Origin: Streptomyces sp. OR43
Lineage (GTDB): Bacteria; Actinomycetota; Actinomycetes; Streptomycetales; Streptomycetaceae
Length of the DNA stretch: 64,000 nucleotides
Assembly: GCF_008042275.1 (NCBI RefSeq)
Contig: NZ_RDBK01000043.1
Coordinates: 4,202,818 to 4,266,817, forward strand
Direction: 5' to 3'
How positions within the stretch are numbered: position 1 is the first letter of the stretch; every line of letters begins with the position of its first letter. The translations under genes were made by a program, and so were the position numbers. Below, piece after piece: positions 7,175-64,000 of this stretch. A model generated the notes under the pieces. It was not told the DNA's origin and did no database searches. It saw only the letters and a program-made list of their open reading frames with translations.

Positions 7175-8131
7175 TCAGTGGTCCCACACCATGTCGAAGG
7201 CGCGCTCGAAGTTGACGTAGCCCAGACGTGCGAAGGACTTCGCCATCGGCACGTTGCCCAGGTCCGTCGACGCCCGGATGCGCTCCACACCGTCCTGCCC
7301 GGCGAGCACCCGGGTTCCCTCCGCGAGGAGTTCGTCGATGTAGCCGTGACCCCGTCGCGCCGGCACGACCCCGATGTACGCGATGATCGGGTGGTAGTTG
7401 TTGCGGGCCGGGACCACGAAGCCGACCGGTTCGCCGTCCGGGAGTTCGGCGACGCGCCACCACTCCCGAGGGGTCGAGTAGTGGGCGAGCTCCTCGTCGT
7501 AGTGCTTCTCCGCGGCCTCGCGCGCCGACAGGCCCGACGCCATGTCCTGCTGTCCGTGCGCGTCGAGCGTGCCCTCCATCACCGGCGTCATCAACGCCAG
7601 GAGATCCTCGCGCCCCGACACCGGGCGGAACCGCAGCCGGCCGCTGTCGGCCGGAACGGGCGTGCCCGCACGCCACTCCAGACGCAGCCGCTCCACGAGC
7701 ATCCGGGCACCGCCGCGTTCCATGACCCGGACGCGCGCCTCCACGACGTCACGGGCCGCCGGGTCCTCGCGCCAGTCGGGCGGCACGTAACGTCCGTACT
7801 CGGGACGCGGGGCACCGGCCGGAACGACGGCGGCCGTCGCCGTCTCCAGCAGCCGCGCTCCCGCCTCGCCGCGCTCGGGCTCGGGAAGCGTGTCGTCCAG
7901 GTCGAAGACGTCGAGGAGCAGCGGCTGCCTGCCGTCCTTGCTCCACCAGGCGATCCGCGCCACCACCCGGTCGCCCCGCAGGGCCACCCACATCCACTCC
8001 GGGCGGCGACGCCCCGCCGCCAGGTCGTCCGCGAGTTCGTGATCCAGGACGTAGGACAGCCGGCGGAAGAGACCGAGCTCCTCCGGCCCGCTGATCGGAC
8101 GGACCGTCATGCCGAGTGGCGCGTCGAGCAC
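7175..8131 (-). CDS. GNAT family N-acetyltransferase (two GNAT-like halves)
   Basis: A protein of about 318 residues. The C-terminal half holds a recognisable acetyl-CoA site (AYIGVVPARRGHGYIDELL, with the R/Q-x-x-G-x-G/A pattern) and ends with the GNAT-like DLGNVPMAKSFARLGYVNFE. The N-terminal half (about 1-150) also has GNAT-like spacing but a weak acetyl-CoA loop, so it may be a degenerate partner domain. The acceptor is unknown. The start is uncertain: the GTG at 8131 has GGGGGA a few bases before it, while the ATG at 8110 has no ribosome site. Confidence 0.82.
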   Translation of the reverse strand: MLDAPLGMTVRPISGPEELGLFRRLSYVLDHELADDLAAGRRRPEWMWVALRGDRVVARIAWWSKDGRQPLLLDVFDLDDTLPEPERGEAGARLLETATAAVVPAGAPRPEYGRYVPPDWREDPAARDVVEARVRVMERGGARMLVERLRLEWRAGTPVPADSGRLRFRPVSGREDLLALMTPVMEGTLDAHGQQDMASGLSAREAAEKHYDEELAHYSTPREWWRVAELPDGEPVGFVVPARNNYHPIIAYIGVVPARRGHGYIDELLAEGTRVLAGQDGVERIRASTDLGNVPMAKSFARLGYVNFERAFDMVWDH

Positions 8132-48665: not shown

Positions 48666-50132
48666 TCAGCGCTTCGCCGGCACGCGCGCGCCGGCCGCCG
48701 GCGCCGGTGCCACGTCCGCCAGGTGGTCCCGTTCCGCGTCCGGGTCCGTCAGCCGGTTCAGCCGCGCCGGTACGTCGAAGCCCACCAGCAGCACCACGAT
48801 CAACGTGCCCGCGAACGTCAGCACCGCCAGCGCCTGCCCCAGGTCCATCCCGGAGGCGAGATGCGCCCCGAGGACCGGGGCGACCGCCCCGCCGAGGGCG
48901 CCCACGTTGTACGTGAAGCCGAGTGCCGCGCCCCGGCTCGCGGTCGGGAAGTGGCCGCCGATGTAGCGGGGGAGCAGCCCGGAGATGCCGAAGCTCGTCG
49001 CCTGGAGCAGGAAGAGCAGGATGCCGAGCAGCATCAGGTTGTCCCGTACCGCGAAGACCGGATAGACGAAGGCGAGTGAGGCCAGCAGCGTCAGCGCGTA
49101 CGCCTTCTTCGTGCCGATCCAGTCGCCCAGGAAGCCCGCGACCCAGCAGCCGGCCATCGTGCCGAAGCCGGCGAAGTACAGGACGTCGGTGACCTGCTCC
49201 GTGGTGTAGCCCAGCTCGGTCTTCAGATACGTGGGCAGCAGGGCCTGGATGGGCCACGAGTACAGGAACGCGAAGAACAGCGTCACGATCATCGACAGGT
49301 ACAGCACCCAGCCGCGCTTCCCGCCCAGCTGCACCGCGAAGGCGGCGAGCGAGAGTCCGGCGATCACGGAGAGCACCGGCACCATCCCGGCCCCGCCCGG
49401 GGTGAAGACGAGGAACAGCGAGACCGTGGCGAGGACGACCAGGACCGTGTTGGCGGTGGCCCGGGCCCGGGTGAGAAACAGCGGCCGGAACGGATGGGGC
49501 TTCGCGCCCTTGTCCGCGACGGACTCCGTCCACTCCTCGGCTTCCGGCAGCGCGCGCCGCATCCACAGCGCGATGGCGATCGGGATGAGGCCCAGGTAGA
49601 ACATCCAGCGCCAGCCGAGTGAGGGGACCACCCAGTCGTAGACCTGGGCGGCGAGCACCGAGCCGACCGAGAAGCCGGAGATCAGGAAGCCGCTGGCCCG
49701 GTTGCGCAGGGCGGCGGGCCAGCTCTCCATGACGTACGTGGAACTGGCGCTGTACTCACCGGCCATGCCCATGCCGATGGCCAGCCGGGCGGCGAACAGA
49801 CTGGTGTAGTTCCAGGCGAACCCGCAGGCGAAGGTACCCACCGAGTACAGCAGGATGCTGAGCACCATGGAGAGCTTGCGGCCGTAGCGGTCGCCGATGG
49901 CGCCGAGCACGGCGCCGCCCAGCCAGCGGGTGATGAACGCACCGGAGATCAGGCTGGCCGCCTGCACCGTGCTCAGGCCGAACTCGTCACTGATCTCGGT
50001 CAGGACGAGGGTGATCAGCACGAAGTCGAAGCCGTCGAGGACATAGCCGATCCAGGCGGCGAAGAACGACTTCCACTGGGTGCGGCTGACCTGGCGGTAC
50101 CAGGGGAGCGTGGGGGGTGACGAGGTCTGCAC
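48666..50132 (-). CDS. nanT: MFS transporter, sialic acid transporter (NanT) type
   Basis: A 488-residue membrane carrier with about twelve hydrophobic segments. Motifs of the sugar/sialate-type MFS are DGFDFVLITLVLTEISDEFG in helix 1, GAIGDRYGRKLSMV between helices 2 and 3, and RLAIGMGMAGEYSASSTYVMESWPAALRNRASG. This last stretch is close to NanT/ShiA-like proton symporters. The last gene of the nan operon lies downstream of nanE and is separated from it by 64 bases. The substrate is inferred from the operon: N-acetylneuraminate. The GTG at 50132 is preceded by GGAG. Confidence 0.85.
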   Translation of the reverse strand: MQTSSPPTLPWYRQVSRTQWKSFFAAWIGYVLDGFDFVLITLVLTEISDEFGLSTVQAASLISGAFITRWLGGAVLGAIGDRYGRKLSMVLSILLYSVGTFACGFAWNYTSLFAARLAIGMGMAGEYSASSTYVMESWPAALRNRASGFLISGFSVGSVLAAQVYDWVVPSLGWRWMFYLGLIPIAIALWMRRALPEAEEWTESVADKGAKPHPFRPLFLTRARATANTVLVVLATVSLFLVFTPGGAGMVPVLSVIAGLSLAAFAVQLGGKRGWVLYLSMIVTLFFAFLYSWPIQALLPTYLKTELGYTTEQVTDVLYFAGFGTMAGCWVAGFLGDWIGTKKAYALTLLASLAFVYPVFAVRDNLMLLGILLFLLQATSFGISGLLPRYIGGHFPTASRGAALGFTYNVGALGGAVAPVLGAHLASGMDLGQALAVLTFAGTLIVVLLVGFDVPARLNRLTDPDAERDHLADVAPAPAAGARVPAKR

Positions 50133-50196: not shown

Positions 50197-50877
50197 TCAG
50201 GGCCGGGTGATGCCTGCCACGAAGCGGGCGGTCAGAGCCGTGGGAGCGGTGATGGCGGTGCCGACGACGACGCTGTGGGCGCCGCGTGCCAGGGCCTCGG
50301 CCGCTTCCTCGGGGGTGTTGATACGGCCTTCGGCGACCACCGGTACGTCGATGGCGGCGGAGAGCGCCGCGACCAGTTCGAGGTCCGGGCCGGTCTGCTT
50401 CGGCGTTCCGGGGACGTAGCCGGACAGGGTGGTGGAGACGAAGTCCGCACCGAGCGAGGCCGCCGTAACGCCCTCGGCGAGGGTCGAGACGTCGGCCATG
50501 ACCAGAGCGCCGGCCGCGTGGACCGCCTCGACGAGCTCGGCGAACGTCGAGCCGTCGGGGCGCGGCCGGTCGGTGGCGTCGGCGGCCACCACGGCCGCGC
50601 CCGCCTCGGCGACGGCCAGGGCGTGCCGGACGGTCGGGGTGATGAAGACGCCGACGTCGCCGTCCTTCCACAGACCGATGACCGGCAGGTCGACGACGGC
50701 GGTGATCGCGGCCACGACCTCCGGATCGTTCGCCCGGATCGCGGAGCCGCCACCGGCGACGGCCGACAGCGCCATCCGCACCAGCGTGGACGTCTCCCGC
50801 ATCGGGTCCCCGGGGGGTGCCTGGCAGGACACGATCAGCTTGCCCCGGAGGGTGGTGGCCAGTTCCTGCGCGGTCAT
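50197..50877 (-). CDS. nanE: N-acetylmannosamine-6-phosphate 2-epimerase
   Basis: A 226-residue TIM-barrel epimerase that turns ManNAc-6-P into GlcNAc-6-P. It shows LRGKLIVSCQAPPGDPM, the catalytic Lys71 in VIGLWKDGDVGVFITPT, VAADATDRPRPDG and the Glu in PVVAEGRINTPEEAAEAL, followed by GAHSVVVGTAITAP. These are strong NanE markers. The ATG overlaps the nanK stop (ATGA). Confidence 0.95.
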   Translation of the reverse strand: MTAQELATTLRGKLIVSCQAPPGDPMRETSTLVRMALSAVAGGGSAIRANDPEVVAAITAVVDLPVIGLWKDGDVGVFITPTVRHALAVAEAGAAVVAADATDRPRPDGSTFAELVEAVHAAGALVMADVSTLAEGVTAASLGADFVSTTLSGYVPGTPKQTGPDLELVAALSAAIDVPVVAEGRINTPEEAAEALARGAHSVVVGTAITAPTALTARFVAGITRP

Positions 50878-51839
50878 CGGAGAGCTCCCGGGTGGTGGAG
50901 GGGAAGGGTGGTGGTGAGGGAGGCCGCGCCGAGCACGGCCGCGTCGTGGCCGAGCAGCGGGGCCTGCGGGACGAGCCTGCGCAGCGGCCCCATCAGCTCC
51001 GCTGCGAACGCGGCGCGCAGGGCGTCCTCGTAGAGCGCGCCGATCCGTGGGACCCCGCCGCCGATCACGACCCGGTCGGGGCCGAACGCGTTGGCGAGCC
51101 CGCCGAGGACATGGCCGGCGGCGGCCGCACCGGTGGTGATGGCGGTGACGGCGTGGGCGTCGCCCCGCGCGGCGCGCGCGGCGACGGTTTCCAGACGGTC
51201 CACGGGGGCGCCGTTCAGCCGTGCGTAGTGGGCGGCGATCCCGGGCCCGGAGGCGATGACCTCCAGATGGCCGGTGGCACCGCAGGTGCAGGGCAGCCCG
51301 GCCGCCTCGGGGCTGGGCAGGTGGCCGACGTGCCCGGCGATGCCGGCCGCGCCGTGCAGCATCCGGCCGTCCACGGCGATGGCGCCGCCGACCCCGGTGC
51401 CGATGGCGGCGAAGAGCAGCGAGCCGTGGCCCTCCGTCTCCGCGTTCAGCGCGGCGAGTTCCGGCCCGGCGGTGGCGCGCACGTCGTTGTCGCAGGCCAC
51501 CGCGTAGCCGGTGCGGTTGGCGAGCCCGACGCCCAGCGGGGTGCCCGCCCAGCCGCGCAGCGAGTCGGTGGCGCTGGTGACCATGCCGGTACGGGGGTCG
51601 ATGACGCCGGCCGCCGCGATGCCGAGCATCGCGGCGCTGTGGCCGGGGTCGACTTCGGCGGCGGCCGCGGCGAGCGCGTCGAGCACCGCCGCGGCGCCTT
51701 CCCGTGCCGGGGTGGGCCTGCTGTGCCGGGCCAGGACCGTGCCGTCCGCCCCGAGGAGCGCGGCGGCGATCTTCGTACCGCCGAGGTCGAGGCCGACGAC
51801 GGGCCCCGCGGCCGGTGCCGGCCGTGCCGAGGCGGTCAT
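50874..51839 (-). CDS. nanK: ROK family N-acetylmannosamine kinase
   Basis: A 321-residue sugar kinase phosphorylating ManNAc. The ATP loop is VVGLDLGGTKIAAALLG, the sugar site is GVGLANRTGYAVACDNDVRA, and the ROK zinc site begins GHVGHLPSPEAA. The zinc motif C-x-C-G-x-x-G-C-x-E reads CTCGATGHLE here, so the third Cys is His. The ATG at 51839 overlaps the nanA stop; the open frame upstream belongs to other frames. The gene order nanA-nanK-nanE follows the pathway. Confidence 0.92.
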   Translation of the reverse strand: MTASARPAPAAGPVVGLDLGGTKIAAALLGADGTVLARHSRPTPAREGAAAVLDALAAAAAEVDPGHSAAMLGIAAAGVIDPRTGMVTSATDSLRGWAGTPLGVGLANRTGYAVACDNDVRATAGPELAALNAETEGHGSLLFAAIGTGVGGAIAVDGRMLHGAAGIAGHVGHLPSPEAAGLPCTCGATGHLEVIASGPGIAAHYARLNGAPVDRLETVAARAARGDAHAVTAITTGAAAAGHVLGGLANAFGPDRVVIGGGVPRIGALYEDALRAAFAAELMGPLRRLVPQAPLLGHDAAVLGAASLTTTLPLHHPGALR

Positions 51840-52795
51840 CGGACCGGCGGCAGACCGGCGTCGCGCAGCCGTCCGGAGACGAGCGCGACGGATTCGGCGG
51901 ACAGCTGGATCTGCGGGAACGCGGTGTCGCCGCACTCGATGATGCCGAGCAGCTGGAGCGCCGACTTGAACGAGCCGAGCGCCGAGGAGCTGCGGCCCAT
52001 GTCCGCCTCGGGGCCGACGTCGACCATGGCGAACAGTTCGATCAGCCGCTCCTGCTCCTTGGCGGCCAGCGTCCAGTCGCCCGCCCGCGCGGCCTCGTAG
52101 AGCCGTACGTAACCGGCCGGGTCCACGTTGCCGATGCCGGGGACGACACCGTCGGCGCCGGCGAGCAGGGCCGCGTCGACGGTCAGTTCGGAGCCGGTGA
52201 GGATGCTGAAGTCCGGGACCGGGCCGTCTCCCCGGCCCTCGCGGCCGCCGAGCTCGACGATGAGACGGCGCAGTCCGCCCTCGTCACCGCTGCTGTCCTT
52301 GAGCCCGGCCAGGGTGCCGTCCTCGGCGAGTTCGCGGACCAGGGCGGCGGACAGCTTGCTGTGCACGGCGACCGGGATGTCGTACGCGAACAGCGGCAGG
52401 TCCACTTCGGCGCGCAGCCGGCGGAAGTGCCCGGCGATCTCCTTGGCGTGGGTGCGGGTGTAGAACGGTGCGGTCGCGACCAGCGCGTCGGCGCCCAGGG
52501 CGGCGGCGGACTTGGCATGCTCGACGACCCGGGCCGTGGTGGTGTCGATGACTCCGGCGAGGACGGGGACGCGGCCGTCGGTCGCGTTGACGACGGTCTC
52601 CAGGACCGTGGCGCGCTGTTCGTCGGTGAGGTAGGCGACCTCGCTGGTGGACCCGAGTGCGAAGAGTCCGTGCACGCCCCCGCCGATGAGGTGCTCGACG
52701 AGGCGGACGAGCGACGTGGTGTCGATCTCCCCGCGGGAGTCGAGCGGAGTGCAGACCGGGGGGACGACGCCGCGCAACGGTGCGGTCAGAGACAT
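51836..52795 (-). CDS. nanA: N-acetylneuraminate lyase (DapA/NanA family)
   Basis: A 319-residue class I aldolase of the dihydrodipicolinate synthase/sialic acid lyase superfamily. The Schiff-base Lys is K166 in LAGLKDSSGD, the Tyr is Y138 in FAYDIPVAV, and the carboxylate-binding motif is GSTSE (48-52), near the G-S-T-G-E of sialate lyases. It should split Neu5Ac to ManNAc and pyruvate. By sequence alone a 2-keto-3-deoxy sugar acid aldolase is possible, but nanE and nanK decide the call. It is the first gene of the operon, with promoter and operator just upstream. Confidence 0.88.
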   Translation of the reverse strand: MSLTAPLRGVVPPVCTPLDSRGEIDTTSLVRLVEHLIGGGVHGLFALGSTSEVAYLTDEQRATVLETVVNATDGRVPVLAGVIDTTTARVVEHAKSAAALGADALVATAPFYTRTHAKEIAGHFRRLRAEVDLPLFAYDIPVAVHSKLSAALVRELAEDGTLAGLKDSSGDEGGLRRLIVELGGREGRGDGPVPDFSILTGSELTVDAALLAGADGVVPGIGNVDPAGYVRLYEAARAGDWTLAAKEQERLIELFAMVDVGPEADMGRSSSALGSFKSALQLLGIIECGDTAFPQIQLSAESVALVSGRLRDAGLPPVR

Positions 52796-52859
52796 GGTGA
52801 GGCTCCAGCTGATGGGGACACCGATCCGCGGCCTGAGTGGCTACCCGGATCGAGACGTG

Positions 52860-52881
52860 AGACGTAAGATGTCCTATGTCT
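52860..52881. promoter_or_regulatory. operator A of the sialic-acid regulon (nanA side)
   Basis: AGACGTAAGATGTCCT (52860-52875) plus ATGTCT forms a 22-base imperfect palindrome with 8 of 11 pairs matching. The 16-base block is matched at 15 of 16 places by the site at 61528. It starts 8 bases after the nanA -10 element on the transcribed side, covering the likely transcription start, so bound repressor would block the promoter. Confidence 0.78.
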
Positions 52882-52888
52882 GACTCAC

Positions 52889-52917
52889 CTTAAACAGATG
52901 CTCCTGGGAACGGTCAA
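52889..52917 (-). promoter_or_regulatory. nanA operon promoter
   Basis: On the minus strand TTGACC (52917-52912), a 17-base spacer and TTTAAG (52894-52889) form a sigma-70-like promoter. It points at nanA, with operator A directly downstream. Confidence 0.65.
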
Positions 52918-52944
52918 GGGGCAACGGCACCTCAGGAGGACGTT

Positions 52945-53640
52945 GTGGCGCGGCCCACCATGGCTCAGGACATCGAGCGCCGGATCAAGGAACTGATCCT
53001 GGAAAGACGGCTCGCGCCGGGCGACGCACTGCCCACGGAGTCCGAACTGATGGACCTCTTCGAGGCCGGCCGGGTGTCGGTGCGCGAGGCCCTCAAGTCG
53101 CTCCAGGCGGTCAACGTCGTGGAGATCCGCCGGGGTTACGGCACCTTCGTCGGCTCGCTCTCCCTGTCACCGTTCGCCGAGGCGCTCGCCTTCCGCGCGG
53201 CCGTCCGCCACCGCCAGGGCGAGCCGGGGCTCGCCGAGCTGATGAAGGTGCGCGAGGCGCTGGAGGCCGGGCTCGTCGGCACCGTCGCGGCCGGCGTCCC
53301 GGACGATGACCTCGACGTCCTGCGCGCCCTGGTCGCGAAGATGGAGGAGGAGGCGGGCGCGGGCCGGGTGGCGCGCTCCACCGACCGGGCGTTCCATCTC
53401 GCGCTCTACGCCTCGCTGGACAACCACCTGCTCAGCGAGGTGCTCGACGCGTTCTGGGCGGCCATGGACCGGGTTCGCGAGGACTTCGACGACGGTCACC
53501 AGGACCCGTCGGTCACCTGCACCCAGCACCGCGAGATCGTCGAGGCGGTCGCCGCGGCGGACGGTCTGCGGGCGGTACGGGCGATGCGTACGCACTTCGA
53601 CGGCATCCGCGACCGCCTGGAACCGGCCCCGGTCCGCTGA
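52945..53640 (+). CDS. FadR/GntR family regulator of the nan operon
   Basis: A 231-residue regulator. The winged helix spans about 8-72 (IKELILERRLAPGDALPTES, GRVSVREALKSLQAVNVVEI, RRGYGTFVGSLS). The C-terminal FCD domain has the usual metal ligands: Asp and His in TDRAFHLAL, His in QHREIVEAV and His in MRTHFDGI. It is divergent from nanA with operator A between them, so it is a likely NanR-type repressor whose ligand would be a sialic acid or ManNAc-6-P. CAGGAGG stands before the GTG start. Confidence 0.92.
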   Translation: MARPTMAQDIERRIKELILERRLAPGDALPTESELMDLFEAGRVSVREALKSLQAVNVVEIRRGYGTFVGSLSLSPFAEALAFRAAVRHRQGEPGLAELMKVREALEAGLVGTVAAGVPDDDLDVLRALVAKMEEEAGAGRVARSTDRAFHLALYASLDNHLLSEVLDAFWAAMDRVREDFDDGHQDPSVTCTQHREIVEAVAAADGLRAVRAMRTHFDGIRDRLEPAPVR

Positions 53641-57641: not shown

Positions 57642-59078
57642 CTACGGAGTGACCGTCACCGTCGTGCTGCCGGATGCCTGCTTGCCGTCCGCCCGGTACG
57701 TGGCGGTCAGTGTGGCGTTCCCCGAAGCGCCCGCCGGCACGGTGACCGGGACCTTGACGTTGGCGCCCTCACCCGGACGCGTCGCCGGGATCGCGGTCCG
57801 TGTGGCCGTCCAGCCGCTCGGCACGGTCAGATCGACGGTGCCCGCGCTGCGGGTCACGTCCATCCGGTTGACGACCCGGACCGTCACCTCGGTGCTCGTC
57901 CCGGCCTTGAGCGCCGCCGGCGGGGTGATCGTGATGTCGGCGCAGGTGCCGCCGAGCCACTTCAGGTCGAAGGAGGAGTACGTGATGTGCTCGTAGTTGC
58001 CCCGTTCGTACAGCAGTCCGAGCCGCCCGTCGGGCAGCCGGGTCAGCGTCGAGTAGGCCGCGGCCCCCGCGTCGACGACCTTCTTGATCGGCCAGGACTT
58101 CCCGTTGTCGCAGGACATCTTGACCGTGAGGTTCTTGCGCGACGTGGCCTCGGTGTTGCTGAACAACAGCCAGGACGACTGCGGGTTCGAGGCCGGGGCG
58201 TCGGGGGCGTACCGCATGATCGAGCCGTTGTTCGCCGGGTCGGGGAGCTCGGTGTCCTGGACGAACGGGGTGTAGGTGACCCCGCCGTCCTTGGAGTACG
58301 CGATCGTCCGGTAGGGCGCCGAGCGGTTGTTGAGCATGATCGTGCCGTCGTTGAGCTCGACGGTCTTGTTCTCGTCGCCGCCGGGCCCGACGGGCGTGCC
58401 CATCTTCCAGGTCGCGCCGTGGTCGTCGCTGTACGCGCTGACCGCGTAGTTGGCCCCGTTGTTGCGAATGGCGTACTGCTGGACCAGTCGGCCCTTGTGG
58501 GCCCCGTTGCGCAGCTGGATGCCCTCGCCGGACGAGGCGAACATGCCGCCCCACGCCGGGTTCTTGATCTGCTGGGTGATGCGGCGGTGGGTCCAGGTCA
58601 GACCGTCGTCGTCCGAGTAGCTGTAGTCGGCCTGCAGGACGTTCGGGTCGCTCTCGTCGTTGCCGGTGGCCGAGCCGAAGAAGCCCTGGTTCACCCCGGC
58701 CGCGTAGAACATGAAGATCCGGCCGGTGGTCCGGTCGACGAGCAGGCTCGGGTCCCCGTATCCCTGGGGCGCGGCGTCCTTGCGGACCACCTGCTGCGCC
58801 TGCCAGGTCGTACCGCCGTCGGTGCTGCGCCGCAGTACGACGCCGATGTTGGACGGCAGGTCGCCGAGGGTCGGGCGGGCGTCGTACGCCGCCAGCACGG
58901 TGCCCTTGACCGAGGTGGTCAAGGCCGGGATCCGGTAGTAGGGGGAGCCCACGCCGTTGACGGTCAGGTCCTGGGAGGTGAGCGTGCCGGGGGCGGGTGA
59001 CGCGGCCTGGGCGGTACCGGTCGTGGTGGCCACCAGGAGGGCGGCACCGAGCAGGGCGACAGGAACGGTTCTCTTCAT
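57642..59078 (-). CDS. secreted exo-alpha-sialidase
   Basis: A 478-residue secreted enzyme. Residues 1-26 are a signal peptide (MKRTVPVALLGAALLVATTT, ending TAQA). The beta-propeller carries the F/Y-R-I-P motif (YYRIP, Arg49 as a carboxylate-binding Arg) and five Asp-box-like repeats: STDGGTTW, SDDDGLTW, SDDHGATW, SKDGGVTY and SCDNGKSW. The end of the propeller, LGLLYERGNYEHITYSSFDL, fits the nucleophile Tyr region. Residues about 385-478 form an Ig-like NPCBM-associated domain. It releases terminal sialic acid from glycoconjugates. It is the last gene of the operon that begins with the CE7 esterase. Confidence 0.94.
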   Translation of the reverse strand: MKRTVPVALLGAALLVATTTGTAQAASPAPGTLTSQDLTVNGVGSPYYRIPALTTSVKGTVLAAYDARPTLGDLPSNIGVVLRRSTDGGTTWQAQQVVRKDAAPQGYGDPSLLVDRTTGRIFMFYAAGVNQGFFGSATGNDESDPNVLQADYSYSDDDGLTWTHRRITQQIKNPAWGGMFASSGEGIQLRNGAHKGRLVQQYAIRNNGANYAVSAYSDDHGATWKMGTPVGPGGDENKTVELNDGTIMLNNRSAPYRTIAYSKDGGVTYTPFVQDTELPDPANNGSIMRYAPDAPASNPQSSWLLFSNTEATSRKNLTVKMSCDNGKSWPIKKVVDAGAAAYSTLTRLPDGRLGLLYERGNYEHITYSSFDLKWLGGTCADITITPPAALKAGTSTEVTVRVVNRMDVTRSAGTVDLTVPSGWTATRTAIPATRPGEGANVKVPVTVPAGASGNATLTATYRADGKQASGSTTVTVTP

Positions 59079-59143: not shown

Positions 59144-60442
59144 CTACGGGACGTTCAGGGAGCAGACCGCGCTGCTCGCGTCGAAGATCCGCAGATCCTT
59201 GATCATCTTGAGCGCGATGCGGTGGTGGCCCCGTTCGTTGGGGTGGAGCCCGTCGCTGAGCAGGGACAGGGGGACCTGGCCGCCGTTGCCGCTCAGCCAG
59301 TCGTTGTAGTGGTCGACGAAGGCGGCCTTCTCCTGCGCCGCGACCTCGCCCATGACCCGCGCGTACTGCGAGAGGTTCACCCGGCCCGGCCACTTCGCCG
59401 GATCCACCGGGTTGGGCGACTGGAGCACCGGCACGGGGGAGCCGGGCAGAGCGCGTACGGAGCGAACGAGCGAGACGAGGTTGGCCCGGTAGGCGTCGAG
59501 GCCCAGTCCGGACGTCGCGATGTCGTTCGTGCCGATCATGATCGAGACGACGTGCGGCGAGAAGGTGGTGACCCGCTCCCCGAACTGCGCCACGAGTTCG
59601 GCGCTGGTCGCGCCGCTCACCCCGGAATCGACCATGAAATCGCGGTTCTTCGGCTTGCCCAGCTCCCAGCGCACCCGCTCCATCCAGTGCTCCGGGTAGC
59701 TGCGCCAGCCATGGGTGTGCAGCGCCCCGTGGGTGATGCTGTCGCCGGTGACGACCCAGGTGGCCGGGGTGTTGCCGTTGAGGATCGTGGAGATCCGGCC
59801 CAGGTCGGCGAGATCGGGGCGGGGGCTCTGCGCGACCAGTTCGGACTCGCTCAGCACCCGGTCCCAGACGGCGGCCCGCTCGATGGTGCCGGTACAGAAC
59901 CACTCGCCGCCGGGGTGGTCGCTGTCGGTGTTGCGCCCCAGCGCGAGGGCGCTCAACCGGGAGACGTTCCCGAAGAAGGAGTGCTGCGCCGTCTCGAACA
60001 CGGTGCGCCCGCCCGCGGACAGCCTGGTGCCCGACCCGTCGACGGTGACGGCGACGGTGTGGCGCAGCCCGTCGTCGTACCGTGTCCTGGTCATGACATT
60101 AATAAGGACCGCGCCCTTCTCGCGCACGGAGAACTGAAGGGCGCCGCCGCTCAGGTTCAGCGTGATGTTCGAGGAGGGAGCGGTGGGATCCGAGGCGCTG
60201 AGCAGCGTCATCGCCTGGTTGTGGCTGGTGGTGCGGAAGGTGACGACGATGGTTCCCGTGGTGAGCGGGGTGAGTGCGCCGACCTGGTTCGACAGATCGA
60301 CGTACCCGCTGCCGTCCAGGTCCACCGGGGTGTCGTGGTCCAGGACCGGGCCGCTGCCCGGGGTGGCGGCGAAGGCGCGGCCACCGAGCTGGGTGCTCAG
60401 GACTGCCGCGCCTGCGGCGAAAAGCATGGATCGTCTGCGCAC
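59144..60442 (-). CDS. CBM40-like domain fused to SGNH esterase
   Basis: A 432-residue secreted protein. The N-terminus MRRRSMLFAAGAAVLSTQLG, ending AFA at about 25, is Tat-like. Residues about 33-205 resemble the sialidase lectin-like domain (CBM40): VGALTPLTTGTIVVTFRTTS, LRHTVAVTVDG and TGTIERAAVWDRVLSESEL. Residues 225-432 form an SGNH hydrolase: S235 in TGDSITHG, Gly in DSGVSGAT, N306 in IGTNDIA, and D397 with H400 in SDGLHPNERGH. It lies between a CE7 esterase gene and the sialidase gene, so it is probably a sialate O-acetylesterase that binds sialoglycans (inference). The gap to the sialidase gene is 65 bases. Confidence 0.85.
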   Translation of the reverse strand: MRRRSMLFAAGAAVLSTQLGGRAFAATPGSGPVLDHDTPVDLDGSGYVDLSNQVGALTPLTTGTIVVTFRTTSHNQAMTLLSASDPTAPSSNITLNLSGGALQFSVREKGAVLINVMTRTRYDDGLRHTVAVTVDGSGTRLSAGGRTVFETAQHSFFGNVSRLSALALGRNTDSDHPGGEWFCTGTIERAAVWDRVLSESELVAQSPRPDLADLGRISTILNGNTPATWVVTGDSITHGALHTHGWRSYPEHWMERVRWELGKPKNRDFMVDSGVSGATSAELVAQFGERVTTFSPHVVSIMIGTNDIATSGLGLDAYRANLVSLVRSVRALPGSPVPVLQSPNPVDPAKWPGRVNLSQYARVMGEVAAQEKAAFVDHYNDWLSGNGGQVPLSLLSDGLHPNERGHHRIALKMIKDLRIFDASSAVCSLNVP

Positions 60443-60457: not shown

Positions 60458-61459
60458 TCAGGAGTGGCCGGCCTGCCCCGACGGCAGGCCTGCGAACAGT
60501 GAGGCCACCCAGGCCAGTTGCTCCCGCTGCTGGTACTCGGCGCCGCCTTCGTGCCCGTTGAACGCGTAGACCGTCACGTCCTTGGGTCCGGCGTAGCCGT
60601 TGTAGGCGGTGAAGCAGGTGGAAGGCGGGCAGATGTCGTCCATCATCGCGATGGAGAACAGTGCGGGGGCCGTGGCCCGGGTGGCGAGCAGTGCGGCGTC
60701 GAAGTACGACAGGGTGGCGAAGACCGACTCGGTCCGGTCGCGGTGGAGCTTGAGGTATTCGGCGATCTCGGTGAACGGCGGCCGCCCGGAGACCTCGGCC
60801 CCACGGCGGAAGTTGCAGAGGAACGGCACGTCCGGCATCACCCCCGCCAGCCCGGGCACGAGCCCCGAGACGGCCAGCGCGATCCCGCCGCCCTGGCTGA
60901 CTCCGGTCACCACGATCCGCTCCGGATCGATCTCCGGCCGGTCGCGCACCGCGTCGACGCAGCGCACCGCGTCGGTGAACAGCCGCCGGTAGTAGTACGT
61001 TTCGGGGCTCTCGATGCCCCGGGTGAGGAAGCCGGGTACGACTCCGGCCGCGCCGCCGTCCGGATCGGCGGTGTCGCCGCCCGCGGCCGACCAGCCCTGG
61101 CCGCGGGTGTCCATCAGCAGATGCGCGTAACCGGCCGACGCCCAGAGCAGGTTCTCGTGTGCCAGGCCCCGTCCGCGGCCGTACCCCAGGAACTCCACGA
61201 CGCAGCCGAGCGGTTCGCTCGCCCCGGCCGGCACCCGCAGCCAGCCGCGCACCGGCTGCCCGGCGAAGCCGGGGACCGTCACGTCGTATGTACGGACCTG
61301 GGTGAGCCCGGTGTCCACCGCCGTGAACGAGGGCTTGTCCGCCGCACAGGACCGGGCCTCGTCCAGGGTCCGCGACCAGAAGGCGTCGAAGTCCGCCGGA
61401 ACGGGAAGCGTGGGCCGGTAGTCGCGGCAGTCCGCGAGCGAGAGGTCCGTGAACGGCAT
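60458..61459 (-). CDS. acetylxylan esterase/cephalosporin-C deacetylase family (CE7) esterase
   Basis: A 333-residue alpha/beta hydrolase of the CE7 type. The nucleophile is S188 in VVTGVSQGGGIAL, the Asp is D274 or D275 in AMMDDICPPS, and His303 is in FNGHEGGAEYQ; the R-G-Q-G-W motif is MDTRGQGWS. CE7 enzymes remove acetyl groups from short sugars and antibiotics, usually in the cytoplasm; no signal peptide is seen. Here it leads the sialidase operon and may deacetylate imported O-acetyl sugars. AGGAGGG stands 8 bases before the ATG at 61459; the ATG at 61519 lacks one. Confidence 0.91.
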   Translation of the reverse strand: MPFTDLSLADCRDYRPTLPVPADFDAFWSRTLDEARSCAADKPSFTAVDTGLTQVRTYDVTVPGFAGQPVRGWLRVPAGASEPLGCVVEFLGYGRGRGLAHENLLWASAGYAHLLMDTRGQGWSAAGGDTADPDGGAAGVVPGFLTRGIESPETYYYRRLFTDAVRCVDAVRDRPEIDPERIVVTGVSQGGGIALAVSGLVPGLAGVMPDVPFLCNFRRGAEVSGRPPFTEIAEYLKLHRDRTESVFATLSYFDAALLATRATAPALFSIAMMDDICPPSTCFTAYNGYAGPKDVTVYAFNGHEGGAEYQQREQLAWVASLFAGLPSGQAGHS

Positions 61460-61521
61460 GGAGGTGCCCTCCTGGGGGCGCAGCGGGAAGTGCCGGGTGC
61501 GAGGGGGTGCACCGGCCATCA

Positions 61522-61546
61522 GACAGAAGACGTCAGATGTCCTGTC
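61522..61546. promoter_or_regulatory. operator B of the sialic-acid regulon (esterase-sialidase side)
   Basis: AGACGTCAGATGTCCT (61528-61543) differs from operator A at one of 16 bases. Outer GACAG (61522-61526) and CTGTC (61542-61546) add symmetry. It lies just downstream of the -10 element of the esterase operon promoter and 63 bases before the start codon. Confidence 0.78.
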
Positions 61547-61555
61547 GGCACACGG

Positions 61556-61585
61556 ACCCTAGGCACCCACCCAGGTGGGCGTCAA
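61556..61585 (-). promoter_or_regulatory. promoter of the esterase-sialidase operon
   Basis: On the minus strand TTGACG (61585-61580), an 18-base spacer and TAGGGT (61561-61556) give a good Streptomyces housekeeping-type promoter. Operator B follows it by 10 bases. Confidence 0.68.
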
Positions 61586-61657: not shown

Positions 61658-62377
61658 TCAGCCCCGGGCGCGGGCCTCGGAGATCCGGCGCCTGACCGGG
61701 GCGTAGTGCTCGCCGAGCGCCTTGATGAACCCGTCGATGTCGCCGGCCCGGGCGGCGTCCACGATGGCCTGGTGGGCGGCGATCGTCTCCGTCTCGTCGC
61801 TGTGCGTGAAGCCGTCCAGGTGCGGTGCGACGATCGCGTACACGTCCCAGAAGGCCATCGACAGCTGGCCGATCAGATCGTTGTCGAGCGGCGCCACGAG
61901 CAGGGCGTGGAAGGCGCGGTCGGCGGCGACGAAGCCGTGCCCGTCCTGGGCCCCGGTCGCCCGCATCGTGGCCACCAGGCCGTCCAGGGCGTCCAGCTGT
62001 TCCGCGGTGAGCAGCGAGACGATCCGGTCGGCCCGCCCGCGCTCGAAGAGCTCGCGCACGTCGACCAGGTCGGACATCACCTGGAAGTCGTCGTCGGGCG
62101 AGAGCAGCCCGCGGAAGGTGAGGCTCTCCACCAGGGCGGACAGGCTCAGCCGGCCGACGTAGGTGCCGTGTCCGTGCCTGACCTCCACGATGTCCAGCGC
62201 GTTGAGGATCTTGACGGCCTCGCGGACGCTGGAGCGGCTGGCGCCGAGCGCCTCGCAGAGGGCGGGCTCCGTGGGCAGCGGGTCTCCGGGACGAAGTCTC
62301 TTCTCGAGGATGTACCGCTTGATGCCGTCGACGACTTCCTGCCGGAGCAGCTGTCGCCCGGGCCTCGTTCCGGACAT
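61658..62377 (-). CDS. FadR/GntR family regulator, second of the sialic-acid locus
   Basis: A 239-residue regulator. The winged helix is about 12-75 (VDGIKRYILEKRLRPGDPLP, ALGASRSSVREAVKILNALD, VRHGHGTYVGRLS). The FCD domain has Asp and His in ADRAFHALL, His in AHQAIVDAA and His in LGEHYAPV. It resembles the regulator at 52945 in layout and in the GTYVGRLSLS/GTFVGSLSLS hinge. It is divergent from the binding-protein gene at 62548 with operator C between. GGGGAG stands before the ATG at 62377. Confidence 0.91.
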   Translation of the reverse strand: MSGTRPGRQLLRQEVVDGIKRYILEKRLRPGDPLPTEPALCEALGASRSSVREAVKILNALDIVEVRHGHGTYVGRLSLSALVESLTFRGLLSPDDDFQVMSDLVDVRELFERGRADRIVSLLTAEQLDALDGLVATMRATGAQDGHGFVAADRAFHALLVAPLDNDLIGQLSMAFWDVYAIVAPHLDGFTHSDETETIAAHQAIVDAARAGDIDGFIKALGEHYAPVRRRISEARARG

Positions 62378-62409
62378 ATGTGAACTCCCCACCTCTTGAC
62401 CCCCATCGA

Positions 62410-62437
62410 TTGTCAAGCTACGTTCCCACGCTATCAA
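62410..62437 (+). promoter_or_regulatory. promoter of the solute-binding protein operon
   Basis: TTGTCA (62410-62415), a 16-base spacer and TATCAA (62432-62437) form a sigma-70-like promoter. Operator C starts two bases after the -10 element and covers the likely transcription start. Confidence 0.66.
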
Positions 62438-62438
62438 G

Positions 62439-62463
62439 GCATCAGACATCTGACGTCTGATGC
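62439..62463. promoter_or_regulatory. operator C of the sialic-acid regulon
   Basis: A 25-base palindrome in which 11 of 12 pairs match: arms GCATCAGACATC (62439-62450) and GACGTCTGATGC (62452-62463) around a central T. Its reverse strand contains AGACGTCAGATGTCT, the same core as operators A and B. It lies between the second FadR-type gene and the binding-protein gene. Confidence 0.8.
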
Positions 62464-62547: not shown

Positions 62548-64000
62548 GTGCCCGAGCTGAGATCAGCCGGTGTCGAGCGCCGCACCTTCCTGCGTTACAC
62601 CAGTGCCGTCGGTGCCGCGGCCGCCCTCACGGCGGGCCTTTCCGCGTGCGGAGGCCCGTCCTCGACCTCCGACGGCTCGACGGGCGGGGGCGGCGACACC
62701 GGTCTCATCGAGGCCGGTATGTCCTACCCGCTGTCGACGGGCTTCGACCCGATGATCACGTCGGGTGCGACGCCGTACGCCGCCAATATGCACATCTTCG
62801 AGGGTCTGGTGGATCTCGATCCGGCAACACTCGTGGCACGGCCCGCGCTCGCCACCGAGATGCCGAAGAAGATCAACGCGACCACCTACCGCGCCACGCT
62901 GCGCAAGGGCGCGACCTTCCACGACGGCTCGGCCGTCACCGCCGACGACGTCGTGTTCAGCTTCGAACGCATCCTGGACCCGAAGAACGCCTCGCTGATG
63001 GCACAGTTCGTGCCCTTCATCGACACCGTCAAGGCCGTCGACGCCGGCACGGTCGAGTTCAAGCTCAAGTACCCCTTCGCGCTCTTCCCGTCCCGCATCG
63101 CCGTGGCCCGGATCGTGCCGAAGAAGATCGTCGAGGCGGACGTCAAGGCGTTCGACGCCAAGCCCGTCGGCTCGGGGCCGTACAAGTTCATCTCGGCGAC
63201 CCGCGAGGACAAGATCGTCTTCGAGAAGTACGAGAAGTACAACGGCGCCCACCCCGCCAAGGCCAAGAAGATGATCTGGCGCCTCATATCCGACCAGTCG
63301 GCCCGGGTCAGCGCCATGCAGTCCGGCCGCGTCCAGGCCATCGAGGACGTCCCCTACATCGACGTGAAGGGGCTCTCCGGCTCGGCGAAGACCGAGTCCG
63401 TGCAGTCCTTCGGCCTGCTCTTCCTGATGTTCAACACCGCCGACAAGCGGTTCGCCGACAAGCGGGTCCGTCAGGCCCTGCACTACGCGCTCGACACCGA
63501 GAAGATCATCAAGACCGCCATGGTCGGCAACGCCGCGGCCGCCACGGGCTACGTCCCCACGACGCACCCGGACTACCACAAGGCCGCCACCGTCTACACG
63601 CACGACGTGGCCAAGGCGAAGAAGCTGCTCGCCGAGGCCGGGGTGAAGGACCTCAAGTTCACCGTCCTGACCACCGACACCGGCTGGGTCAAGGACATCG
63701 CCCCGCTGATCAAGGAGAGCTGGGCCGCGGCCGGCATCGAGGCCACCCTCGGCATCGCCCAGTCCGCCGCCCAGTACGCCAAGGTCGACAGCGGTGACTT
63801 CGAGGTACTCGTCGCCCCCGGCGACCCCTCCGTCTTCGGCAACGACGTGGACCTGCTGATGCGCTGGTTCTACTACGGCTTCTGGCCGGAGAACCGCTAC
63901 GGCTGGTCCAAGACCGCCGAGTACAAGAAGGTCAAGCAGCTCCTCGACAAGGCCGCCCAGTCCGGCGACGAGGCGACCCGCAAGCAGCTGTGGGGCCAGA
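62548..64000 (+). CDS. family-5 ABC substrate-binding lipoprotein, SatA-like (3' end outside window)
   Basis: The visible 484 residues start at GTG 62548 after GGAGG. The signal combines a twin-Arg-like [20 protein letters not shown] with the lipobox LSAC (Cys34). The mature part is an SBP_bac_5 protein (DdpA/OppA class): [36 protein letters not shown] and [21 protein letters not shown]. Such proteins bind peptides, but sialic-acid ABC transporters of the SatABCD/SiaEFGI type use the same family. The regulon operator before it points to sialic acid. The permease and ATPase genes should follow to the right of the window. Confidence 0.9.

Follow-up and report, generated by a model that had tools for sequence, protein, structure and literature searches.

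Organization of the esterase locus

The window, that is, the whole stretch of 64,000 nucleotides of Streptomyces DNA analysed here, contains on the minus strand, at 59144-60442, an ORF of 432 amino acids with a GTG start codon and GGAGG upstream of it. The product starts with a Tat-like signal (RRRSMLFAAGA...AFA) and joins an N-terminal CBM40-fold domain to an SGNH esterase domain, a combination that an earlier note on this sequence had recognized and that turned out to be conserved: orthologues of 55-94% identity are present in 18 Streptomyces loci. The copy in a 19th locus (L022, 8001-9086, Streptomyces sp. Ncost-T10-10d) is frameshifted past residue 319, which reflects either decay or a sequencing error. 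AlphaFold2 modelled the full-length protein with a mean pLDDT of 85 and the N-terminal domain alone with a pLDDT of 89.

The genes of the minus strand follow in the order GntR, AXE1, fusion, GH33, other genes, nanA, nanK, nanE and nanT, and a gene for a family-5 solute-binding protein diverges from the GntR gene. The features are:

62548..63999, plus strand: ABC solute-binding protein, family 5; runs off the window end
62440..62462, no strand assigned: operator-like palindrome CATCAGACATCTGACGTCTGATG, at the GntR start, between the GntR and solute-binding-protein genes
61658..62449, minus strand: GntR/FCD regulator, NanR-like; the true start is probably downstream of the palindrome
61556..61585, minus strand: promoter-like TTGACG-18-TAGGGT ahead of AXE1; a consensus match only, conserved in orthologous loci
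61517..61539, no strand assigned: operator-like palindrome CATCAGACAGAAGACGTCAGATG, just downstream of the AXE1 promoter-like sequence; conserved in orthologues
60458..61459, minus strand: AXE1 (CE7-type) acetylesterase; no evident signal peptide
59144..60442, minus strand: whole gene of the secreted CBM40-fold and SGNH esterase, 432 amino acids, Tat-like signal VRRRSMLFAAGA...AFA
59819..60346, minus strand: CBM40-fold domain, residues 33-208 (phmmer, family profile, residue alignment, predicted structure)
59189..59767, minus strand: SGNH hydrolase domain, residues 226-418 (Pfam, residue alignment, fold comparison)
57642..59078, minus strand: GH33 sialidase; its N-terminus is signal-like and it includes a NEW3 Ig-like domain; RIP, YDARP, SGEGIQL and YSTLT motifs
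52945..53640, plus strand: second NanR-like GntR/FCD regulator
51836..52795, minus strand: NanA-like lyase (DHDPS family)
50874..51935, minus strand: NanK-like ROK kinase
50197..50877, minus strand: NanE epimerase, over the curated cut-off
48666..50132, minus strand: NanT-type sialate:H+ symporter (MFS), over the curated cut-off

The AXE1 stop lies 15 bp from the fusion start, and 65 bp separate the fusion from the GH33 gene; AXE1, the esterase and GH33 apparently constitute one operon. The earlier note had taken the next gene for a sialidase, and this was borne out, as the GH33 protein encoded 65 bp downstream matched the Micromonospora sialidase 1eut at 1.7e-122 with the RIP, Asp, Glu and Tyr nucleophile motifs aligned. 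The GH33 protein at 57642-59078 has no CBM40 of its own. The AXE1 product may act intracellularly, removing acetyl groups from sialates or other sugars, and the family-5 solute-binding protein is perhaps part of a sialate importer.

A shared operator-like palindrome

The palindrome CATCAGACGTCAGATGTCTGATG at 62440-62462 recurs with 2-3 mismatches at 61517-61539, a recurrence that was found in 0 of 100 shuffles. The orthologous clusters retain its core, GGACATCTGACGTC, ahead of AXE1, and a weaker related sequence is present in the gap between nanR and nanA (52786-52960). Judging from these sequence repeats, the two palindromes are likely operators of a sialic-acid/esterase regulon, and their arrangement fits a single regulon under the NanR-like GntR protein.

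In L025 (2652-7989) the gene order is different: GH33, a hexosaminidase-like gene and the esterase, with the operator-like core located about 65 bp ahead of GH33, an arrangement that suggests a stepwise removal of mucin-type sugars. In L013 an extra operator-like core (7844-7857) precedes the esterase gene by about 145 bp and adjoins an apparent fragment of a duplicated AXE1 start.

The N-terminal domain belongs to the CBM40 family by profile and fold

When the single N-terminal domain was compared with the PDB by phmmer, the R. gnavus CBM40 was the top match (8e-7), followed by CpNanJ (3e-4) and the LamG domain of pikachurin (2e-3). A family profile (A3) built from twelve relatives and searched against the PDB placed eight CBM40 sequences in the lead (1e-12 to 2e-6, RgNanH at 1e-12), with laminin next at 5e-6. 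In Pfam the CBM40 model PF02973 stayed below its curated cut-off (13.8 bits vs 26; 14.4 bits in the genome search), whereas Laminin_G_3 passed its own (35.7 vs 27.6). The HMM searches proposed in the earlier note therefore gave a split answer: the SGNH model PF13472 matched at E 8.8e-30, but PF02973 did not reach significance by its cut-off. With Laminin_G_3 also passing, the preference for CBM40 over other LamG domains at the sequence level has a modest margin.

In the comparison of the predicted structure, sialidase CBM40 entries ranked top both in Foldseek and in VIA-align 2, the latter being a re-scoring of Foldseek's list and not an independent search. Entries 1-21 of the VIA-align ranking were all sialidase CBM40s (Z 24.0-21.2, rmsd 2.0-2.4 over about 172 residues), and the best folds outside this family were domain 4 of the arabinanase AbnA (Z 19.2) and PTX3 (18.4). 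The resemblance of the N-terminal domain to CBM40 is thus well beyond chance. A generic LamG/ConA module was considered as the best description of the domain and was rejected, because profile and structure both rank CBM40 top, although Pfam by itself would give Laminin_G_3. The likeness to the lectin domain of sialidases that had been pointed out for residues ~33-205 consequently held, in sequence profile as well as in fold, and the structural comparison with LamG proposed along with it came out in favour of CBM40.

The canonical sialic-acid site is altered

In the CBM40 of RgNanH, replacement by Ala of any one of R128, R204, E126, Y116 or Y210 abolishes binding (Owen et al., PMC5736709). The RgCBM40 numbering was verified on the PDB sequence, where an offset of 47 gives I95, D110, Y116, E126, R128, K135, R204 and Y210 exactly, and eleven esterase copies plus two sialidase-borne copies of the module (13 in all) were aligned with four CBM40s. 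R128 corresponds to R107 of the window protein and is Arg in all 13 copies. R204 corresponds to D173, which is Asp in 13/13 with no gap nearby; a misalignment at this point was ruled out, since the G-x-x-x-R and G-x-x-x-D segments align without a gap. The arginine dyad that holds the carboxylate (R128/R204) is therefore incomplete. E126 corresponds to S105, a Ser that ten of the eleven esterase copies share and that L023 alone replaces by Val, and Y210 to W181, Trp in 12 of the 13 copies, as in SpNanA. For Y116, which falls in an alignment gap, no counterpart could be placed; neither E126 nor the Y116/Y210 platform of canonical CBM40s was accordingly found. Both sialidase-borne copies (L027 and L072) have Glu at the E126 position and so retain the E-x-R pair of CBM40. 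Asp at the 204 position is also found in L081, an ordinary LamG_3 domain.

By its fold and family, then, the domain is a CBM40, yet on the residues aligned the canonical binding site is absent, and a sialic-acid-binding domain that works in the known way is not supported, given Asp for R204 in all 13 copies, Ser or, once, Val for E126 in the esterase copies and no placement of Y116. That the domain nevertheless binds terminal Neu5Ac as a canonical CBM40 would, thereby targeting the esterase to sialoglycans, agrees with its fold and sequence family, with the retained R128, with a Trp at 210 that SpNanA shares and with the E-x-R pair of the two sialidase-borne relatives. We regard it as improbable, however, as the carboxylate-binding Arg is replaced in every copy and E126 in all eleven esterase copies, and these are positions where single Ala mutations abolish binding by RgCBM40. 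Since the site is altered at R204 and E126, plain alpha-Neu5Ac, held in the manner of the R. gnavus or C. perfringens CBM40, is probably not the ligand; an O-acetylated or a neighbouring sugar is possible.

As the essential CBM40 residues are changed or unplaced in three cases out of five, the domain might also have lost ligand binding altogether and persist as a folding or spacing module, in an enzyme that may still be a sialate esterase. This too appears quite unlikely, because R107, N171 and D173 (and, nearly so, E180 and W181) are retained even by copies with as little as about 40% identity, and this conserved set lies partly in a loop, where disuse would predict drift. A tentative alternative, to which we give somewhat more weight although still with low confidence, is that the esterase modules and those of some GH33 sialidases represent a Streptomyces CBM40 subfamily in which the carboxylate Arg became Asp and which would recognize a different determinant, e.g. 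an O-acetylated or otherwise modified sialoside. If so, the esterase would be aimed at exactly the sugars that the sialidase cannot cut.

The same module occurs on GH33 sialidases

In S. hydrogenans (L027, 6489-8501) a GH33 sialidase gene located directly upstream of the esterase orthologue encodes a C-terminal copy of the module, 39% identical to that of the window (1e-26). A second GH33 with a C-terminal module was identified in another Streptomyces genome (G197; L072, 1-1986, minus strand), with a profile score of 187 bits. When 296 Streptomyces genomes were scanned with the module profile, eight matches exceeded 180 bits, namely seven esterases and the L072 GH33; the next match scored 46. 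At high score the module is confined to this esterase and to GH33 sialidases, so we place it in sialoglycan breakdown, and its presence on sialidases is the strongest evidence for such a role.

Distribution of the esterase and its neighbours

GH33 directly follows the esterase in 12 of the 19 Streptomyces loci; within the fetched stretches, GH33 is present in 14/19 and nan genes in 15/19. Three of the five loci without GH33 belong to genomes that carry this gene elsewhere and two do not, no close GH33 having been found anywhere in the genomes of L020 and L026. No nan gene was seen in the loci L023 and L026. Among the 296 Streptomyces genomes sampled, the esterase was present in 7, GH33 in 32 and both in 6 (hypergeometric P 7e-6, a value that ignores the kinship of the genomes).

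Outside Streptomyces the fusion was found in none of the 396 genomes of the phylum sampled, nor in the 208 sampled with the module profile, and no full-length fusion was found on plasmids. Three SGNH-only relatives, about 40% identical, occur in other phyla. A Bacteroidia MAG (L030, 62-3981) contains two SGNH genes with BNR_2 sialidase-like genes on both sides, and its second SGNH protein, about 40% identical to the window domain, is devoid of CBM40. The BNR neighbours in L030 and L032 are called only sialidase-like, because no Tyr nucleophile was seen by eye in the former proteins and no PDB match was obtained for the latter gene.

The SGNH domain and its probable substrate

The PF13472 match covers residues 233-407, and both Lipase_GDSL_2 and Lipase_GDSL were matched in Pfam. 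All the SGNH blocks announced in the earlier note are in place: GDS (S235), G277, GTND (N306) and DGLH (D397, H400) do not vary among the 22 sequences aligned, three of which come from non-Streptomyces relatives. The block following the nucleophile, GDSITHGA..T.G.R...E...ER..WE, is likewise invariant down to the relatives from Bacteroidia, Lentisphaeria and Zixiibacteriota, and its Arg247 could meet a carboxylate. An esterase of the NanS/SASA type was ruled out, as that family is defined by HQGE in block III, with no Asn there (PMC9487903), and block III is here GTND with the invariant N306.

By sequence, the PDB entries nearest to the domain were Axe2-like acetylesterases and Bacteroides GDSL proteins (~2e-9), vs ~0.05 for the solved sialate O-acetylesterases; by fold, the domain reached Z 24.0 to 3rjt and many SGNH esterases tied. 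Homology thus leaves the substrate unsettled, and these matches, which include Axe2-type acetylxylan esterases, could be read as pointing to a general acetyl-glycan esterase, active on xylan or the cell wall, that has a LamG-like structural or glycan-binding domain and came to lie in a sialidase operon by chance. The Asp shared at position 204 with an ordinary LamG_3 domain would agree with this reading. We consider it unlikely, however, since the operon with GH33 and nan genes is conserved, the palindrome is common to the esterase operon and the GntR/solute-binding-protein promoter, and the same domain is present on GH33 sialidases.

The most likely interpretation is therefore that the fusion is a secreted sialate O-acetylesterase that aids the sialidase and bears a variant CBM40. 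We assign a probability of about 0.6 to a secreted sialoglycan O-acetylesterase acting before or with the co-encoded GH33, the substrate being read from the context; this value and the chances given above to canonical Neu5Ac binding and to another determinant concern overlapping readings, and their sum is not one. The sialoglycan role is proposed because of the AXE1-esterase-GH33 operon, the nan genes nearby and the palindrome common to this operon and the GntR/transporter promoter. Further points in its favour are the co-occurrence with GH33 and the SGNH relative among sialidase-like genes in L030. Counting against a sialate esterase are the greater sequence proximity to Axe2-like enzymes, the broken canonical CBM site, the two genomes without a close GH33 and the two loci without a nan gene; furthermore, the adjoining AXE1 could do the deacetylation instead.

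In the mechanism that we propose for the sialate esterase, the SGNH domain would remove O-acetyl groups (at C9, C7 or C4) from extracellular sialic acids by the usual Ser-His-Asp acyl-enzyme route, which would render these sugars cleavable for GH33. The Neu5Ac freed by the sialidase would be taken up by NanT or the ABC importer and used by NanA, NanK and NanE. With lower confidence, the CBM40-fold domain might hold the enzyme on sialoglycans through its altered site.

CBM40 modules have so far been known almost exclusively from sialidases, and here one with the CBM40 fold is found on an esterase that adjoins a sialidase, while other sialidases bear the same module; the arrangement would mean that in bacteria a single type of module directs both the enzyme that unblocks the sugars and the one that cuts them. 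Its changed site offers a direct test of CBM40 ligands beyond Neu5Ac, and a soil bacterium as host suggests that sialoglycans are also exploited in habitats other than the gut.

Comparison with known systems

The CBM40s of RgNanH (6er2-6er4), CpNanJ (2v73), CpNanI (5fra) and SpNanA (4c1w) resemble the window domain in fold (Z 23-24) and overall sequence, and share with it R128 and an aromatic residue at 210; they differ in that the window domain has Asp for R204, Ser for E126 and no placed Y116. These canonical modules sit on sialidases, whereas the window domain sits on an esterase; in the canonical CBM40 set, 92% carry a sialidase domain (PMC5736709). We found no published description of a CBM40-SGNH fusion in the open-access literature. 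Streptomyces nan clusters have been described, and the parts available of that report mention a 'nanS' acetyl-transferase/hydrolase accessory gene (PMC8754123), which may be this esterase gene or another; the accessible portion of PMC8749437 gives no details on the Streptomyces 'nanS'.

As for the esterase, NanS (SASA) and PvSAE (SGNH, 7pzg) share the presumed reaction and the SGNH fold, but NanS has HQGE in block III instead of GTND and PvSAE matches by sequence at only E 0.06. The haemagglutinin-esterases of viruses are SGNH sialate esterases that owe their specificity to a beta-sandwich lectin domain (PMC9487903); the likeness is one of working, no sequence relation being claimed, and their lectin is inserted in the esterase, whereas the window domain precedes it.

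A physical link between an O-acetylesterase and the release of sialic acid is exemplified by B. bifidum SiaBb1, cited in PMC10017367 as an O-acetylesterase/GH33 fusion. On that description SiaBb1 is a single chain, whereas here the esterase is encoded by a separate gene and has a CBM40-fold module in common with some sialidases. The pneumococcal Axe and EstA, Gly-X-Ser-X-Gly serine esterases that are intracellular and for which no CBM was described, release acetate from mucin and increase the output of NanA (PMC5352144). They are alike in being acetylesterases that boost a sialidase, and Axe, an acetyl-xylan esterase, recalls the adjoining AXE1; the window enzyme, unlike them, is of the SGNH type and secreted. 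The aid that deacetylation lends to a sialidase is hence already established, and the novelty of this locus lies in an esterase that bears a CBM40-fold module, and in the altered site of that module.
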